Both the position numbers and the translations under genes were made by a program. From positions 1 to 34,970 of the forward strand of contig QZKO01000087.1 of assembly GCA_003599505.1 (NCBI GenBank): a stretch of 34,970 nt of DNA, in the 5' to 3' direction. Positions 6,890-13,858 of this stretch are shown here, one piece after another. Numbering within the stretch: the first letter of the stretch is position 1; every line of letters begins with the position of its first letter. Origin of the DNA: Nitrospiraceae bacterium (GTDB taxonomy: Bacteria; Nitrospirota; Thermodesulfovibrionia; UBA6902). The notes under the pieces were generated by a model. It saw nothing but the letters and a program-made list of their open reading frames with translations, was not told the origin of the DNA and did not search any database.

Positions 6890-8014
6890 TTAAGCTTCCA
6901 GCGCCTGCCGGATGTCCTCAATCAAGTCGTCTTTGTTCTCAATTCCGACGGACAATCTGAGAAGGTTGTCTGAAATGCCCAGGCGTTTTTTTACTTCTTC
7001 AGATACCTTCTGATGTGATGTGGTTGCAGGGTCGCATATTGTTGTCTCTACTCCTCCGAGGCTCAGGGCTGCCTTAATGAGCTTAAGCCGTTTCATGAAG
7101 GCCTGGGCCGGCGTATCTTTAATTTCAAAAGAGAGCATGGCCCCGTAACCGGACATTTGATTACGGGCAATCTTGTGCCCGACGTGGTTTTCGAGCCCTG
7201 GGTAATTCACGCCGGCAACCTTTGCATGGTTCTCAAGGAATCCCGATATCTCAAATGCATTCTGTGTCTGCCGTTCCACTCTAATTGAAAGGGTCTTCAG
7301 GCTCCTTTCGAGCAAGTAACAGCTCAGCGCGTTTAGACTGCCTCCGAAATGCGCGGCGGTCCTCCTGATACGCGCGGCAATCTCTTTATTCGCAAGCGCA
7401 ACGCCGCAATAAAGGTCACTGTGTCCGCCGAGATACTTTGTCCCGCTGTGAAGCACGATGTCAATGCCGAGTTTAAACGGGTTCTGGTTGATCGGGGTTG
7501 CGAAGGTATTGTCGATAATTGTGAGAATGCGTCTCCGCCTGCCGATCTCCGCGACTGCGCGCAGGTCCACCACATTGAGTAAAGGATTGGTCGGGCTCTC
7601 AATATAGATTATCCGGGTGTTCGGTTTGATCGCCTCTTCAATAGCATGCGCTTCTTTCCCGGCCATGGTGAAAGAGATGCCGAGCCTGCTGAAATGCTCT
7701 TCCACAAAGGCATGACTTCCGCCGTAAATCTCATCCTGCACCACGGCGTGATCACCGCTATTCAGCAATGTGAGCAAGACCGTGCTTATCGCGGCCATGC
7801 CGGAAGAAAATATGACGCCGTTTTCGGCGCCTTCAAGCTCGCAGAGTTTCTTTACAACAGCCTCCTGGTTCGGCGTGTTGAAGTACCTTTGATAAAGCCG
7901 GACATCCGTATCGAGATACCCGTAGGCGGAAGAGGTAAATATCGGAGTATTTATCCCCTTTGTCTGCGTGTCCGGATAACCGCCTGCATGAATGCATTTT
8001 GTGTCAATGTGCAT
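6890..8014 (-). CDS. Cys/Met metabolism PLP enzyme (cystathionine gamma-synthase/beta-lyase or methionine gamma-lyase type)
   Basis: The protein has 374 residues and belongs to fold-type I PLP enzymes of sulfur amino-acid metabolism. The PLP lysine is Lys193 in VLHSGTKYLGGHSDL. The phosphate-binding motif SSGMAAIST is at about 70-78, the cofactor-ring Asp is in TIIDNTFATP (about 165-174), and YIESPTNPLL is at about 137-146. These features are shared by cystathionine gamma-synthase, cystathionine beta-lyase, O-acetylhomoserine sulfhydrylase and methionine gamma-lyase, and I cannot choose between them from sequence alone. The gene follows a cupin gene by 17 nt, with a GGAGAAT ribosome site, and an EamA exporter precedes both. 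The set may handle or export a sulfur amino acid. Length is slightly short for the family (about 380-400) but complete. Confidence 0.9.
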   Translation of the reverse strand: MHIDTKCIHAGGYPDTQTKGINTPIFTSSAYGYLDTDVRLYQRYFNTPNQEAVVKKLCELEGAENGVIFSSGMAAISTVLLTLLNSGDHAVVQDEIYGGSHAFVEEHFSRLGISFTMAGKEAHAIEEAIKPNTRIIYIESPTNPLLNVVDLRAVAEIGRRRRILTIIDNTFATPINQNPFKLGIDIVLHSGTKYLGGHSDLYCGVALANKEIAARIRRTAAHFGGSLNALSCYLLERSLKTLSIRVERQTQNAFEISGFLENHAKVAGVNYPGLENHVGHKIARNQMSGYGAMLSFEIKDTPAQAFMKRLKLIKAALSLGGVETTICDPATTSHQKVSEEVKKRLGISDNLLRLSVGIENKDDLIEDIRQALEA

Positions 8015-8031: not shown

Positions 8032-8364
8032 TCATAAGAACTCTTTCCTCACCGGCGACCATGCGTCCACGGCTTTACAGGATTTTTCCCCTGTAGAAGC
8101 AGCGTGAACAATGTTTGACGGAATGGCTATCACGTCACCGGACTTCAGAGCAACAGTCTTACCTCCATAGGAAAAGGTCAGCTCCCCTTCCAGTATCAGG
8201 GTAATCTGCTCTGCCTCGTGCGAATGCTCTGGAAACTTCGTATCAGGCCCCATTTCAAAATACGTGAGCATCGTTTTGTCCAGCCCTACGGCCCACATCT
8301 TCGCGCCGGGGACATTCGGTTTCAGTGATAAATCATCATTGTGATATACTTTTATCTCATTCAT
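8032..8364 (-). CDS. Cupin-domain protein
   Basis: From the ATG at 8364 this is 110 residues. That start is preferred because GGAGG stands 6 nt upstream; an in-frame ATG at 8421 would add 19 poorly conserved residues. A single cupin barrel is visible: PDTKFPEHSHEAEQITLILE supplies the first metal-binding motif (H-x-H and E), and GDVIAIPSNIVHAA the second with its His. The metal-binding residues look intact, so an enzyme or a small-molecule sensor is possible. The gene lies 17 nt before the PLP enzyme gene and is probably co-transcribed with it. The substrate is not evident. Confidence 0.85.
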   Translation of the reverse strand: MNEIKVYHNDDLSLKPNVPGAKMWAVGLDKTMLTYFEMGPDTKFPEHSHEAEQITLILEGELTFSYGGKTVALKSGDVIAIPSNIVHAASTGEKSCKAVDAWSPVRKEFL

Positions 8365-8463
8365 TATTTTCCTCCATCGCCGGCCTTCTATTTCTTTAGG
8401 TACTTCATCTGGATATTCCATAGTATAAGTCCTGCGCCTTCAGGGGGCGCTCTCCATATATCA

Positions 8464-9345
8464 TCAATCCCTTTGCCCAATGATAACCAGCGCCACGCCG
8501 GTCAGGATTATCATCATTGCTGAAATCCCCTTCGCTGTAATCTCTTCACCTGCAAACCATACGCCCAATAACACCGCAATAACAGGGTTGACGTACGCGT
8601 AGCTTGTCGCAAGGGCAGGGCGCACCTTTTCAAGAAGGTAAATGTAGGCAATGAACCCTACGAGTGAACCGAAGACCGCAAGATACAATATCGCGCCTAT
8701 GGAATACAGGCCCGGCGTCCCTGTCATCCGTTCTCCGCTCAGCAAGCTCACAATCAGGACCAGCGCGCCTCCGGCAACCATTTCGATCGCGCTTGCCATT
8801 ATTCCAGGAGGGAGCTTTAATCTCCTGCTCCATACAGAGCCGAAGGCCCATGACATCGCAGCGATGACCAGAGCGGCTGAACCAACCGGATGCGTCCTTA
8901 AATCTGTTTCAAGATTCAGGACAGCGACCCCCGCGAATCCAAGCATCAGACCCGCCCATTCAAAACGGCTTGCCCGGTGCTTCCATATACCCGCGAATAT
9001 TACCGCCCACAGCGGCGTGGTAGCTATCATAAGAGACGCGAGTCCTGACGACACCCACTGTTCTGCGTACGCTACCCCGGCGCTGCCGCCGAAAAGCAGC
9101 AGCCCTCCGATCATGGTCGCGTTTATCCAGTGGGAAAAATCAGGGGCGGATGCGCCTCTGATCCTCAGGAAAAGATACAGGCCGCCTCCCACTGCGAGAA
9201 AGCGTATCCCCATCATGAAGAAAGGCGGAAAATCCTCCAGCGCTATTTTTATAGCGAGGTATGTCGAACCCCAGGAGATGTAAACGGCAAGCAGGGCCAG
9301 CATTATCCTCGCTTTGCCGTCTCCTTTAATTGCTTTTTTGAACAT
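8464..9345 (-). CDS. EamA/DMT-family exporter, YedA-like
   Basis: This 293-residue integral membrane protein has about ten hydrophobic helices in two EamA repeats. The opening LLAVYISWGSTYLAIKIALE and DFPPFFMMGIRFLAVGG is the characteristic YedA/RhaT-type start; the second repeat includes AAMSWAFGSVWSRR and ends PVIAVLLGVWFAGEEITAKG. Members export amino acids or related metabolites; the substrate here is unknown. The gene is first in a minus-strand series with the cupin and the PLP enzyme, 99 nt before the cupin start. No strong ribosome site is seen before the ATG. An isolated promoter-terminator unit lies 146 nt upstream and could be its leader. Confidence 0.9.
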   Translation of the reverse strand: MFKKAIKGDGKARIMLALLAVYISWGSTYLAIKIALEDFPPFFMMGIRFLAVGGGLYLFLRIRGASAPDFSHWINATMIGGLLLFGGSAGVAYAEQWVSSGLASLMIATTPLWAVIFAGIWKHRASRFEWAGLMLGFAGVAVLNLETDLRTHPVGSAALVIAAMSWAFGSVWSRRLKLPPGIMASAIEMVAGGALVLIVSLLSGERMTGTPGLYSIGAILYLAVFGSLVGFIAYIYLLEKVRPALATSYAYVNPVIAVLLGVWFAGEEITAKGISAMMIILTGVALVIIGQRD

Positions 9346-9361
9346 GTTTTAAAATAATTTC

Positions 9362-9440
9362 AGCCACGAATTTCCACGAATTGCCTCGAATGAATCAGGA
9401 GCAGATTTTTATTCGTGCTTATTCGTGTACATTCGTGGCT
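9362..9440. repeat. ACGAAT/ATTCGT inverted-repeat element
   Basis: AGCCACGAAT (9362-9371) is the exact reverse complement of ATTCGTGGCT (9431-9440). Between them lie further ACGAAT, CGAATGAAT, ATTCGTG and ATTCGTGT words, so the whole 79 nt can fold as a long hairpin. It has the look of a dispersed non-coding repeat rather than a gene-specific site. Confidence 0.7.
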
Positions 9441-9490
9441 ATCTCCTTTTCTTTACTTTCCCTGCATCCCATTTCATGGCGCATCTCCCA

Positions 9491-9523
9491 AAATAAAAAA
9501 GCCGCGGATTTTATTCCGCGGCC
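9491..9523 (-). terminator. Strong rho-independent terminator of the small unit
   Basis: On the minus strand GCCGCGGA (9522-9515), a 6-nt loop and UCCGCGGC (9508-9501) are followed by UUUUUUAUUU. It closes the transcript that starts near 9640. Confidence 0.85.
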
Positions 9524-9553
9524 TTTGAAGTTTCCCTGTTATCCGATTAACAG

Positions 9554-9640
9554 TTAATAGAATACCTCCCCGGCCACGGCATTTATATGCCATGCGGCTT
9601 TAAGGACTCTTTTAGCCATTAACGGATTTGAGTAAAACAT
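9554..9640 (-). CDS. Possible 28-residue leaderless peptide
   Basis: The predicted transcript start (A at about 9640) falls on an ATG that opens a 28-codon frame, reading MFYSNPLMAKRVLKAAWHIN then AVAGEVFY. No Shine-Dalgarno exists, so translation would be leaderless or would start at the second Met (9619). The stop is followed by a hairpin and the terminator, a layout seen with leader peptides, but no run of one regulatory codon is present. Coding status is uncertain and the same bases may serve only as RNA structure. Confidence 0.3.
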   Translation of the reverse strand: MFYSNPLMAKRVLKAAWHINAVAGEVFY

Positions 9641-9646
9641 GTTATC

Positions 9647-9675
9647 AGTATAGAGAAAGATATTTTTCGTGTCAA
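9647..9675 (-). promoter_or_regulatory. Near-consensus sigma-70 promoter
   Basis: On the minus strand TTGACA (9675-9670), exactly 17 nt, then TATACT (9652-9647). This is the best promoter match in the window and it drives the small unit at 9491-9640. The bases on the other side (9676-9837) are AT-rich and hold only a weak candidate promoter (TTGTGG, 16 nt, TATAAA, about 9745-9772) for the next plus-strand gene. Confidence 0.8.
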
Positions 9676-9837: not shown

Positions 9838-11058
9838 ATGAAATACATCGTACTGGTAGGCGACGGGATGGCGGACAGGCCGATGAAAGAGCTTGGAGGC
9901 AAGACCTGCCTGCAAAAAGCGCGTACGCCGAATATGGACCTGATTGCGCGCGGGGGTAACGCGGGCAGGGTGAGGACAATACCCAAAGGGTTTGAGCCGG
10001 GCTCCGACGTCGCGAACCTTTCCATCCTCGGTTACAACCCTTCAAAATACTACAGCGGCAGGGCCCCGGTCGAGGCGGTCTTCAGGGGGATTGACCTGGG
10101 TCCGGAAGATATAGCATTCAGATGTAACCTCGTGACTTTGGATTTTTCAGGTACCGGCGGAAGGAAATCGGCCCGCATGCAGGATTATAGCGCCGGACAT
10201 ATCACGACCAGGGAAGCGGGAAAACTTATCAGGGACATCAATAAAAAATTGGGCGGAAGGGAAATTGTTTTTTATCCCGGAGTGAGTTACCGCCATTTGA
10301 TGATCTGGAAAAACGGGGAGGAGAAAATCAGGTGCACTCCGCCACATGATATCACAGGGAAGAAGATAAGCGGTCATCTCCCTGCAGGAAACGGCTCTGA
10401 AATCCTTAACGTGCTTATGGAGCAGTCGACGGAAATATTATTGTCGAACCAGGTCAATAAAGAAAGACTCAGAAAAGGGCAAAACCCGGCCAACAGCGTC
10501 TGGTTCTGGGGACAGGGCAGAAAATTATCCGTCCCGGGATTTAAAGATAAATATAATCTCAGGGGCGCTCTAATATCGGCAGTTGATTTGACGAAAGGAC
10601 TCGGCCTGTGCGCGGGCTTTGATATCATCAACGTAAAAGGCGCGACGGGGTATATCGACACCAATTACGCAGGCAAGGCAAATGCCGCGCTGAAGGCGCT
10701 GAAGAAGTACGACATTGTCTATGTTCACGTTGAAGCGCCCGACGAAGCGGGACATAACGGAGACGCAAAGATAAAAATAAAGGCGATAGAGGACTTTGAT
10801 TCAAAGGTTGTCGGCGCGGTGCTGAAAGGGATCAGGAATTTCAAAGAATACCGTATCCTGCTTTTGCCGGACCACGCGACACCGGTCAGGGCGAGAACGC
10901 ATACGCCTGAGCCGGTCCCGTTTGCGATTTACGGGACAGGCATAAGTCCGAAAAATAAAAAGACCACATCATTCTCTGAAAGTATCTGCAGGATGAGGAA
11001 CGCGCTGTCTTTTGAAAAGGGATATAAGCTGATGGATTATTTTACAAGGAGGTCTTAG
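9838..11058 (+). CDS. Phosphoglycerate-mutase-like protein, proposed homoserine kinase
   Basis: From the ATG at 9838 (after AAGGGG) this is 406 residues; a TTG at 9820 is the weaker start. It belongs to the alkaline-phosphatase superfamily group of cofactor-independent phosphoglycerate mutase (COG3635). It shows Asp9 in [11 protein letters not shown], the nucleophile Ser62 in [11 protein letters not shown], and the metal-binding stretches [13 protein letters not shown] and LLPDHATP. The same family includes TIGR02535, proposed as a substitute homoserine kinase in genomes lacking thrB. The next genes are aspartokinase (4 nt after the stop) and citramalate synthase, an amino-acid context that favours the homoserine-kinase role over glycolysis. 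This is inference; mutase activity is not excluded. Confidence 0.82.
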
Positions 11059-11062
11059 TTTC

Positions 11063-12277
11063 ATGCTGATCGTCCAGAAATACGGAGGAACATCTGTCGC
11101 GAATGCGGACAGGATCAAGGCTGTGGCGGAGCGTGTCGCGAAGGCCGCGAAGGAAGGACACAAGGTAGTCGTTGTTGTCTCCGCAATGGCGGGTGAGACG
11201 GACAAGTTGATAGGGCTTGCCAATCAGATATCCACTAATCCCGGAGAGAGGGAGATGGACCTCCTCCTGTCGTCAGGCGAGCGCATAACCAGCGCGCTTA
11301 CTGCCATGGCTGTGGAAGCCCTTGGGTATAAAGCGATAGCATTTACGGGCCGGCAGATGGGCATCATTACGGACGCGGTCCACACAAAGGCAAGGATAGA
11401 GAAGATCACCGGTGAACGGGCCAGGAAAGCATTGGACGAAAACTACGTAATTGTTGTCGCGGGGTTCCAGGGAATAACCGGGACTGATGACGTCACGACC
11501 CTCGGGAGGGGAGGGTCCGATCTTTCCGCGGTCGCCATAGCGTCGGCGCTGAATGCCGACCTGTGCGAAATTTATACGGACGTTGACGGGGTCTACACAA
11601 CAGACCCCAATATCGCGCCCGAGGCCAGGAAACTGGAAAAGATCTCTTATGAAGAAATGCTGGAGCTCGCGAGTCTCGGGGCGAAGGTCCTTCAGACGAG
11701 GTCAGTTGAGTTTGCAATGAAATACGAGGTGCCTGTGGTTGTGAGGTCAAGCTTCAATGATAACCCGGGAACGCTTGTCACCAGGGAGGATAAGGATATG
11801 GAAAAGGTAGTTGTGTCCGGAGTCGCTTACGACAAGAACCAGTCGAAGATTACCGTCAAGACAGTGCCGGATAAACCCGGAATCGCTGCAAGACTTTTTA
11901 AAGCTATCGCCGATGCGAATATCGTAGTGGACATGATAGTGCAGAATATCAGCATAGGCGGAAACGCTACGGATATATCGTTTACCGTGCCCAAGACCGA
12001 CAGCAAGAAGACCCTCGCGCTGACCGAGAAGATCGCGGGGGAACTTGAGGCAAAAGGCGTTGATCTCAGAGAAGATATAGCGAAAATATCCGTTGTGGGC
12101 GTCGGCATGAGGACGCATTCCGGTGTGGCGTCCCAGATGTTCGACACCCTCGCGAAACATGGTATCAACATCATGATGATAAGCACGTCCGAGATAAAGG
12201 TTTCCTGCATTATCGAACTTAAATACACCGAACTTGCCGTCAGGGTGTTGCATGAGGCGTTCGGGTTGTCGCAGTAA
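11063..12277 (+). CDS. lysC: Aspartate kinase
   Basis: This 404-residue enzyme phosphorylates aspartate, the first step to lysine, threonine and methionine. The N-terminus [20 protein letters not shown] is the kinase signature. [20 protein letters not shown] and [16 protein letters not shown] follow at about 150-185. Two ACT regulatory domains are at the C-terminus: [20 protein letters not shown] at about 270 and [20 protein letters not shown] at about 350. Feedback inhibition by lysine and/or threonine is therefore likely. The ribosome site AGGAGG lies inside the last codons of the preceding gene, so the two are coupled. The length is normal for a monofunctional LysC. Confidence 0.97.
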
Positions 12278-12295
12278 TTATGTTAAAATAGCGCC

Positions 12296-13858
12296 ATGCG
12301 AAAAGTTGAATTATATGATACGACATTAAGGGACGGCGCCCAGTCGGAAGAGATCTCGTTTTCCGTTGAGGACAAGTTAAGGATCGCCCGCAAGCTTGAC
12401 GAGTTCGGCGTCCATTACATCGAAGGCGGGTGGCCCGGAGCTAATCCCCGCGACGCGGAGTTTTTTGAAAAGGTCAGGAAGCATAAATTCATTACTTCAA
12501 AACTCGCGGCGTTCGGCGCGACGCACAGGGCGTCGCTCAAGGTAAATGAAGACCCGAGCATAAAGGCGCTGCTTGCCGCAAAAACCCCTGTAGTCACTAT
12601 TGTGGGCAAGACATGGGACTTTCATGTAAGGGAAGCATTGAGGGTTTCAAACCAGACAAACCTCGAGCTTATTTACAACACTATCTCATATCTCAGGAGA
12701 AAAGTCCCACAGGTCTTTTTCGACGCCGAGCATTTTTTTGACGGCTACAAGGCAAATCCCGAATACGCGCTCAAGACGCTTGACGCGGCTGTTTCCGCCG
12801 GAGCGGACTGCCTGGTGTTGTGTGATTCAAACGGCGGGACCTTACCGAATGATATCGGGAAAATAGTCCGGACCGTTTACGATAAATTTAAAACACCTCT
12901 CGGCATCCACGCTCATAATGATTCCGAATGCGCTGTCGCCAATTCCATCATCGCCGTGGAACACGGCGCCGTGCAGGTGCAGGGGACGATCAACGGTCTC
13001 GGTGAGAGGTGCGGCAATGCCAACCTGATTTCAGTGATTCCTAACTTAAAGGTTAAGCTTAAGATAAACTGTATAACGGATGGTAAATTAAAGAAATTAA
13101 AGGATGTATCCCGGTTTGTGACCGAGATTGCCAACCTCAGGCCTTTCAAGAGGCAGCCATATGTCGGTGACAGCGCGTTCGCGCATAAAGGCGGCATACA
13201 CGTAAGCGCGATCCTGAGGCACCCGGAGACATATGAGCACATTAAGCCTGACGTTGTCGGTAATTACCAGAGAGTGCTTATCTCCGACCTCGGCGGAAGG
13301 GGCAATATTATCAAGAAAGCCAGAGAGGTCAATCTTAAGGTTGATCCTGATTCTCCTGAGATAGCTCATATTGCCAGGCAGATGAAGGAGCTTGAGAACC
13401 AGGGGTTTCAGTTTGAAGGCGCTGAAGCTTCATTCGAGCTTTTAATGAAAAAGACCTTCAAACTTCACAGGAAATTCTTTGAGCTTACAGGTTTCAGGGT
13501 AATTGTGGAAAAAAGGAGTGAAGGCGAAGAATGCCTGAGTGAAGCCACAATTATGCTGAAAGTCGACGGGAAACCGGAGCACACTGCGGCGACAGGTCAT
13601 GGCCCCGTAAACGCGCTTGACGCTGCTTTGAGAAAGGCTCTTGAAAAATTCTATCCGCAGTTGAAAAAAGTAAGACTGCTCGACTATAAAGTAAGGGTGC
13701 TGACAGCGGGAACAGGCACTGCCGCAAAGGTCAGGGTACTGATAGAATCCGGCGATGACGTTCACAAATGGGGCACAGTCGGCGTTTCCGAGAACATCAT
13801 CGAGGCCTCCTGGCAGGCGCTCGTGGACAGCATAGAGTATAAACTTTTGAGAGGATGA
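12296..13858 (+). CDS. cimA: (R)-citramalate synthase
   Basis: The 520-residue protein condenses pyruvate with acetyl-CoA to citramalate, the threonine-independent entry into isoleucine synthesis. The DRE-TIM motif is [20 protein letters not shown] at residues 6-25. The metal-binding His pair lies in [15 protein letters not shown] (about 202-216), followed by [15 protein letters not shown]. The C-terminal third is the LeuA-type dimer and regulatory domain ([20 protein letters not shown]). Length and order fit the CimA subgroup TIGR00977 rather than LeuA or NifV. It follows lysC by 18 nt. With the neighbouring homoserine kinase candidate and aspartokinase, the cluster supplies the aspartate-family and isoleucine pathways. 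No attenuator was seen upstream. The ATG has no obvious strong ribosome site. Confidence 0.95.

Follow-up and report, generated by a model that had tools for sequence, protein, structure and literature searches.

What does the long gap ahead of an exporter gene in a Nitrospiraceae genome hold, a free-standing RNA or the control region of the genes that follow? The window, which is the whole 34,970-nucleotide stretch of contig QZKO01000087.1 that we analysed, had received an initial annotation in which a consensus promoter, a structured transcript and a strong terminator formed an "orphan" unit, either a dedicated small RNA or an attenuator leader for the exporter-cupin-PLP enzyme genes downstream. 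From comparison with related sequences, we consider it very probable that the element is a ribosome-mediated transcription attenuator heading a mosaic operon, most likely one that senses slow translation at a Trp codon. Attenuation itself is well supported; from the same sequences we infer the signal that is sensed.

Promoter, leader reading frame and terminator in the window

The gap runs from the end of the EamA gene at 9345 to the ATG of a phosphoglycerate mutase-like gene at 9839 and, as annotated before, is the longest noticed in the window's list of open reading frames. The promoter and terminator described there are both present, on the minus strand. The promoter (-35 box TTGACA at 9675-9670, -10 box TATACT at 9652-9647, 17-nt spacer) matches the consensus at 11 of 12 positions and is the best of five promoter-like sites between 7000 and 12500. 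The bare presence of such a site is uninformative, since shuffled sequences average 6.3. The terminator stem at 9526-9497, with 12 pairs (7 GC) and a U-rich tail, is the strongest of seven (6.6 in shuffles). For the 150-nt transcript the computed folding energy is -59.1 kcal/mol, where shuffled versions average -34.2 ± 3.9 (z = -6.3). What places the element above chance is that promoter, ATG, reading frame, hairpin and terminator all recur in relatives.

Absent from the initial annotation was a 28-codon leader ORF that starts at the predicted transcription start, ~9640. As its ATG sits 6 nt past the -10 box, the leader mRNA is probably leaderless: RNA from ~9640 would start at the leader AUG or within 1–2 nt of it. 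The features, all on the minus strand, are as follows.

9647-9675, minus strand: sigma-70-type promoter, TTGACA-17-TATACT; the layout recurs ahead of the ORF at nearly all related sites
9554-9640, minus strand: leader ORF, 28 codons, MFYSNPLMAKRVLKAAWHINAVAGEVFY, stop TAA; open frame kept in relatives, with an excess of differences at third codon positions
9589-9594, minus strand: region 1, CAUGGC, which includes the Trp codon UGG (9592-9590); consensus folds pair this region with region 2
9571-9580, minus strand: region 2, GCCGUGGCCG; partner of either region 1 or the terminator 5' arm
9515-9525, minus strand: region 3, the terminator 5' arm, AAGGCCGCGGA
9490-9508, minus strand: region 4, the terminator 3' arm and U-run
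9439-9477, minus strand: class I methyltransferase stub, 12 codons (MKWDAG..., stop), preceded by a Shine-Dalgarno-like GGGAG
8464-9345, minus strand: EamA family exporter (NCBIfam YedA model), the first intact gene behind the switch
8032-8421, minus strand: cupin protein
6890-8014, minus strand: Cys/Met metabolism PLP-dependent enzyme

The spacer to EamA measures ~145 nt, in line with the earlier estimate. Between the methyltransferase stub and EamA, positions 9352-9455 form an inverted-repeat-like spacer, CCACGAAT...ATTCGTGG, a partly dispersed repeat with four partial copies elsewhere in the genome. Divergent from the switch, the plus strand at 9839-13858 carries the phosphoglycerate mutase-like gene, an ACT-domain amino-acid kinase (aspartokinase-like) and a second, ordinary LeuA-type gene.

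Relatives of the leader and conservation of its reading frame

Among 61 genomes searched at the DNA level, including that of the window, clear copies turned up in relatives ranging from members of its genus to members of its class. Once aligned, these relatives share the promoter, an ATG where the transcript is predicted to start, a short ORF, a hairpin and a terminator, followed by a gene. With a covariance model built from 15 relatives, 230 genomes of the class were screened at E ≤ 0.01 and 99 of them gave a match, though many of the weakest matches are probably due to chance. At E ≤ 1e-4 the phylum gave matches in 64 of 395 genomes, nine of these from a family outside the class; the E-values of this model are rough. 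The compiled set comprises 96 sites in 85 genomes from two classes of Nitrospirota, with everything computed from draft genomes and with related sequences that are not independent of one another. The initial annotation had left the conservation of its structure to a covariance search, and the structure proved to be conserved in relatives.

A DNA pattern found 44 stretches in genome collections, and in 27 of them the covariance model recognises the RNA; these 27 are labelled Nitrospirae/Nitrospiraceae, Thermodesulfovibrionales/-ia, 'Nitrospira japonica' or 'Bacterium BMS3'. The other 17, labelled Proteobacteria and Actinomycetales, gave no match to the model, and presence outside Nitrospirota was rejected on that ground. 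The viral contigs searched gave no match to the leader RNA either. Within the set, leaders L181-L185 and L187 (family f25, from the other class) have a U-run, GCTTTTTT or similar, directly after the leader stop codon, where the window's class has the strand of an AU-rich stem. Some sites are decayed: L094 and L103 in genome G025 keep the promoter and terminator with the leader ORF short or lost, and L136 in genome G006 keeps the promoter and leader ORF and has lost the terminator.

At Rfam gathering scores, the judgement by eye that no RNA family fits the element stands. A search of the window with Rfam 15 yielded no family at that level, and 20 related loci yielded two tRNAs only. The best sub-threshold hit in the window was a weak, whole-length match to Leu_leader (RF00512; 28.5 bits against a gathering score of 50, E = 6.5e-4). 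The same model reached E ≤ 0.5 in none of 12 other members, and with the window below the gathering score, membership in Leu_leader was rejected. The Leu_leader of E. coli reportedly encodes a 28-residue leader peptide.

Is the leader ORF translated? We think so, because the frame stays open and third codon positions differ most. Frame 0 from the ATG is open for at least 22 codons at 96% of 94 sites, compared with 21% and 13% for the other two frames (scored at 94 of 96 sites, leaving out L086 and L087, where no ATG was detected, and with the starts of L070 and L115 mis-set; the starts of L086, L070 and L115 were afterwards assigned by hand). The ATG follows the -10 box by 6 nt at 57 sites and by 7 nt at 20, together 77 of 94, and the peptide is 26–30 codons long at most sites, with a conserved core AW(H)xxAVAEGG(F/Y). 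Differences at codon positions 1, 2 and 3 number 540, 581 and 806 among 48 related leaders of 28 aa, and 94, 101 and 181 among 15 related leaders of 27 aa. For these and the residue counts below, 92 of the 96 leaders were used (L087, L094, L103 and L190, decayed or too short, were excluded). In a wider alignment of 54 of the 96 sites, picked mainly by score, indels within the ORF are mostly multiples of three; the few that are not shift the frame with the total ORF length still held.

Alternative pairing and proposed stalling at the Trp codon

Region 2, with the family sequence GCCGUGGCYG, lies inside the ORF and is complementary either to the upstream CAUGGC or to the terminator 5' arm. Its pairing with the terminator arm is stronger than that of dinucleotide-shuffled ORFs (mean z = -2.9; 91% below -1), and regions 2 and 3 of the same leader pair at -15.53 compared with -15.06 ± 0.10 when swapped (0 of 20,000 permutations, shared ancestry ignored). 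By computed pairing, antiterminator and terminator are mutually exclusive. The long stem P1 is consistent in alignment A2 and was not recovered in the wider alignment A4.

Ribosome stalling was simulated for 90 of the 96 leaders; L087, L094, L103, L136 and L190 had been excluded beforehand, and L022 was dropped, its 2:3 pairing being weaker than -9 kcal/mol. In these leaders the antiterminator is possible for stalls up to the Trp codon and gone one or two codons beyond it. The permissive stretch contains 75 of 97 Trp codons, and 51 of the 97 stand at exactly -12 from region 2. By equilibrium calculation, nearly every stall ahead of the Trp codon is also permissive.

The U of the Trp codon is kept in 52 of 54 rows and forms a G-U wobble with region 2 in 49 of 54, where a C would pair better. 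The base before UGG closes an Ala codon and varies freely there (GCA 47, GCC 15, GCG 6, GCT 1; n = 69). The conserved UGG and the free preceding base favour a constraint on the codon; the same pattern could alternatively mean selection for a weak region 1:2 helix.

The proposed mechanism would run as follows. Ribosomes would start on the 5' AUG of the leader. Once a ribosome had passed freely through the ORF, region 1 (CAUGGC) and region 2 would pair again in its wake, the terminator would form, and transcription would end near 9490. A ribosome stalled with UGG in its A site would instead cover region 1 and leave region 2, which starts 12 nt on, free to pair with the terminator 5' arm, so that RNA polymerase would continue into EamA-cupin-PLP or, in most relatives, into methyltransferase-led operons. 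The attenuator reading is based on the conserved ORF, the terminator/antiterminator pairing and the recurrence of same-strand genes behind the switch (93 of 96 sites).

How does this compare with known systems? The trp, his and leu operons of enterobacteria carry the classical amino-acid attenuators, which use runs of control codons. The Nitrospirota leaders resemble them in a leader peptide (here predicted to be translated), three alternative hairpins, an intrinsic terminator and a control codon in the 5' arm of the first hairpin. Unlike them, the ORF here is probably leaderless, the usual type has a single Trp codon, region 2, which does the switching, falls within the ORF ahead of the stop codon, and one homologous leader heads many different operons. 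The Corynebacterium ilvB-II motif, or ilvBNC attenuator, is described as a conserved uORF with antiantiterminator, antiterminator and terminator, and is discussed as a leaderless mRNA (PMC10272879; PMC11857589). It is alike in these features and set apart by sequence, phylum, operon and amino-acid content, which is branched-chain there. None of the downstream labels assigned here is ilvB, which was not among the labelling seeds. The rli80/hflXr attenuator of Listeria likewise combines a small ORF and alternative structures in transcription control by ribosome stalling; it differs from the leaders here in its antibiotic-sensing RLR peptide of 14 residues and in belonging to Firmicutes (PMC6310831). 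What is unusual is the combination of a probably leaderless ORF, a single Trp codon, region 2 within the ORF, many operons and two classes. In the freely accessible literature searched, we found no description of this leader, which is a weak negative.

Genes behind the leader and the signal it may sense

A recognised same-strand gene lies downstream at 93 of 96 sites, and two of the other three are contig ends. The unit is thus no orphan, and a stand-alone small RNA was rejected on this count; the other half of the initial proposal, an attenuator leader for the exporter-cupin-PLP genes, agrees with the ORF and the alternative pairing as well. The first recognised gene is methyltransferase A at 49 sites, another methyltransferase at 14, EamA at 8, LeuA (two kinds) at 8, a PNPOx-like protein at 4, TrpE at 3 and ilvE at 2, one of these (L094) behind a decayed leader, with single cases of others. 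Later genes are a reshuffled, mosaic set of methyltransferases, EamA exporter, PLP enzyme and LeuA, along with GNAT, nitroreductase, MBL-fold and PNPOx-like proteins, PhzF and, at a few sites, chorismate mutase. Downstream labels were given by similarity to seeds drawn from the same loci; Pfam/NCBIfam labels cover the window genes and methyltransferase A, and the labels LeuA, TrpE, ilvE, PNPOx, MBL, GNAT, PhzF, chorismate mutase, nitroreductase and aminotransferase were judged from the sequences.

The association with methyltransferase A also holds in the reverse direction: of 46 such genes, spread over 45 of 230 genomes, 42 lie behind the leader and two start at contig ends, with no leader found at the genes G129 and G134. 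A full class I methyltransferase gene follows the leader in most relatives. The window keeps its first codons only, and a search of its genome assembly found no full methyltransferase-A gene.

Of the possible signals, we consider a lack of charged tRNA-Trp the most likely, at about an even chance. Trp is present in 81 of 92 leaders (3.9% of residues) and missing from 11; the window leader has a single Trp codon. The three trpE-led leaders, L096, L102 and L196 (genomes G121, G120 and G124; trpG comes next, and trpD too at the two longer loci), have four, two and three Trp codons, an excess that is modest because family f17 leaders not heading trpE already average ~1.5. Trp is missing at five of eight leuA-led sites versus 6 of 84 others (Fisher p = 4e-4, shared ancestry ignored), several of these Trp-less leuA leaders coming from different families and two from one genus. 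In some relatives a new operon seems to have brought a change of control codon, with more Trp before trpE and its loss before most leuA. Among 30 other trpE loci of the class there was no convincing Trp leader, the few matches being chance frames, some of which by eye fall in tRNA-like sequence. Apart from trpE (three sites) and chorismate mutase (a few), most downstream operons have no evident link to Trp.

Because nearly any earlier stall is permissive, the signal could be broader than Trp. It is possible, if rather unlikely, that the attenuator senses a general slowing of translation, for example by ribosome-targeting antibiotics, and that the operon is a stress or detoxification set. The simulation is consistent with this, since the antiterminator becomes free there wherever a ribosome halts, with few exceptions, as far as the Trp codon. 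So are a peptide whose sequence drifts while its length is held, the methyltransferases, EamA exporters, GNAT, nitroreductase, MBL-fold and PNPOx-like proteins downstream, and the precedent of the hflXr leader of Listeria (PMC6310831). However, the Trp codon is retained in most leaders despite its wobble pair, and Trp number tends to track the downstream gene.

A leucine- or branched-chain-responsive attenuator of the Leu_leader type is improbable. LeuA or ilvE is the first gene at ten sites (8 and 2), the leaders are 12.3% Leu, and the window has the weak Rfam match; but that match extends to none of the 12 other members, leucine is frequent in any hydrophobic peptide, and in leaders of the usual type a ribosome at the Leu codons would sit too far upstream to cover region 1 fully.

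Still less probable is a trans-acting small RNA, or a secreted small peptide, that merely sits beside the operons. The strong promoter and terminator would give a stable RNA of ~150 nt, and attenuator RNAs can work in trans, as reported for peTrpL in Sinorhizobium (PMC7298713); yet a same-strand gene persists behind the sites though its identity changes, and the complementarity of the terminator 5' arm to the ORF is conserved. A metabolite riboswitch with an ORF open by chance is the least probable of all: class I methyltransferases form the majority of first downstream genes and the hairpin and terminator are conserved, but the open frame with its third-position excess, the alignments without a large unpaired conserved core and the lack of an Rfam match all speak against it.

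To our knowledge, gene control in Nitrospirota, whose members are mostly uncultured, is almost unknown, and this leader family is an apparently undescribed group of translation-sensing switches there. Reading the element as an attenuator, we tentatively suggest, with a little less than even confidence, that a single ancestral switch, with a leaderless leader peptide, persisted in both classes as a plug-in sensor, its operon being repeatedly reshuffled and its control codons retuned (e.g. extra Trp when trpE was recruited), and that the usual operon is an uncharacterised pathway or a stress response to slow translation. The shared regulator defines a co-regulated gene set of unknown purpose, and the Trp-rich (trpE) and Trp-less (most leuA) variants are natural material on change in attenuator specificity. 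One genome, G030, carries three copies of the switch (L074, L078 and L058) with different leader peptides, two of which precede methyltransferase A and one leuA.
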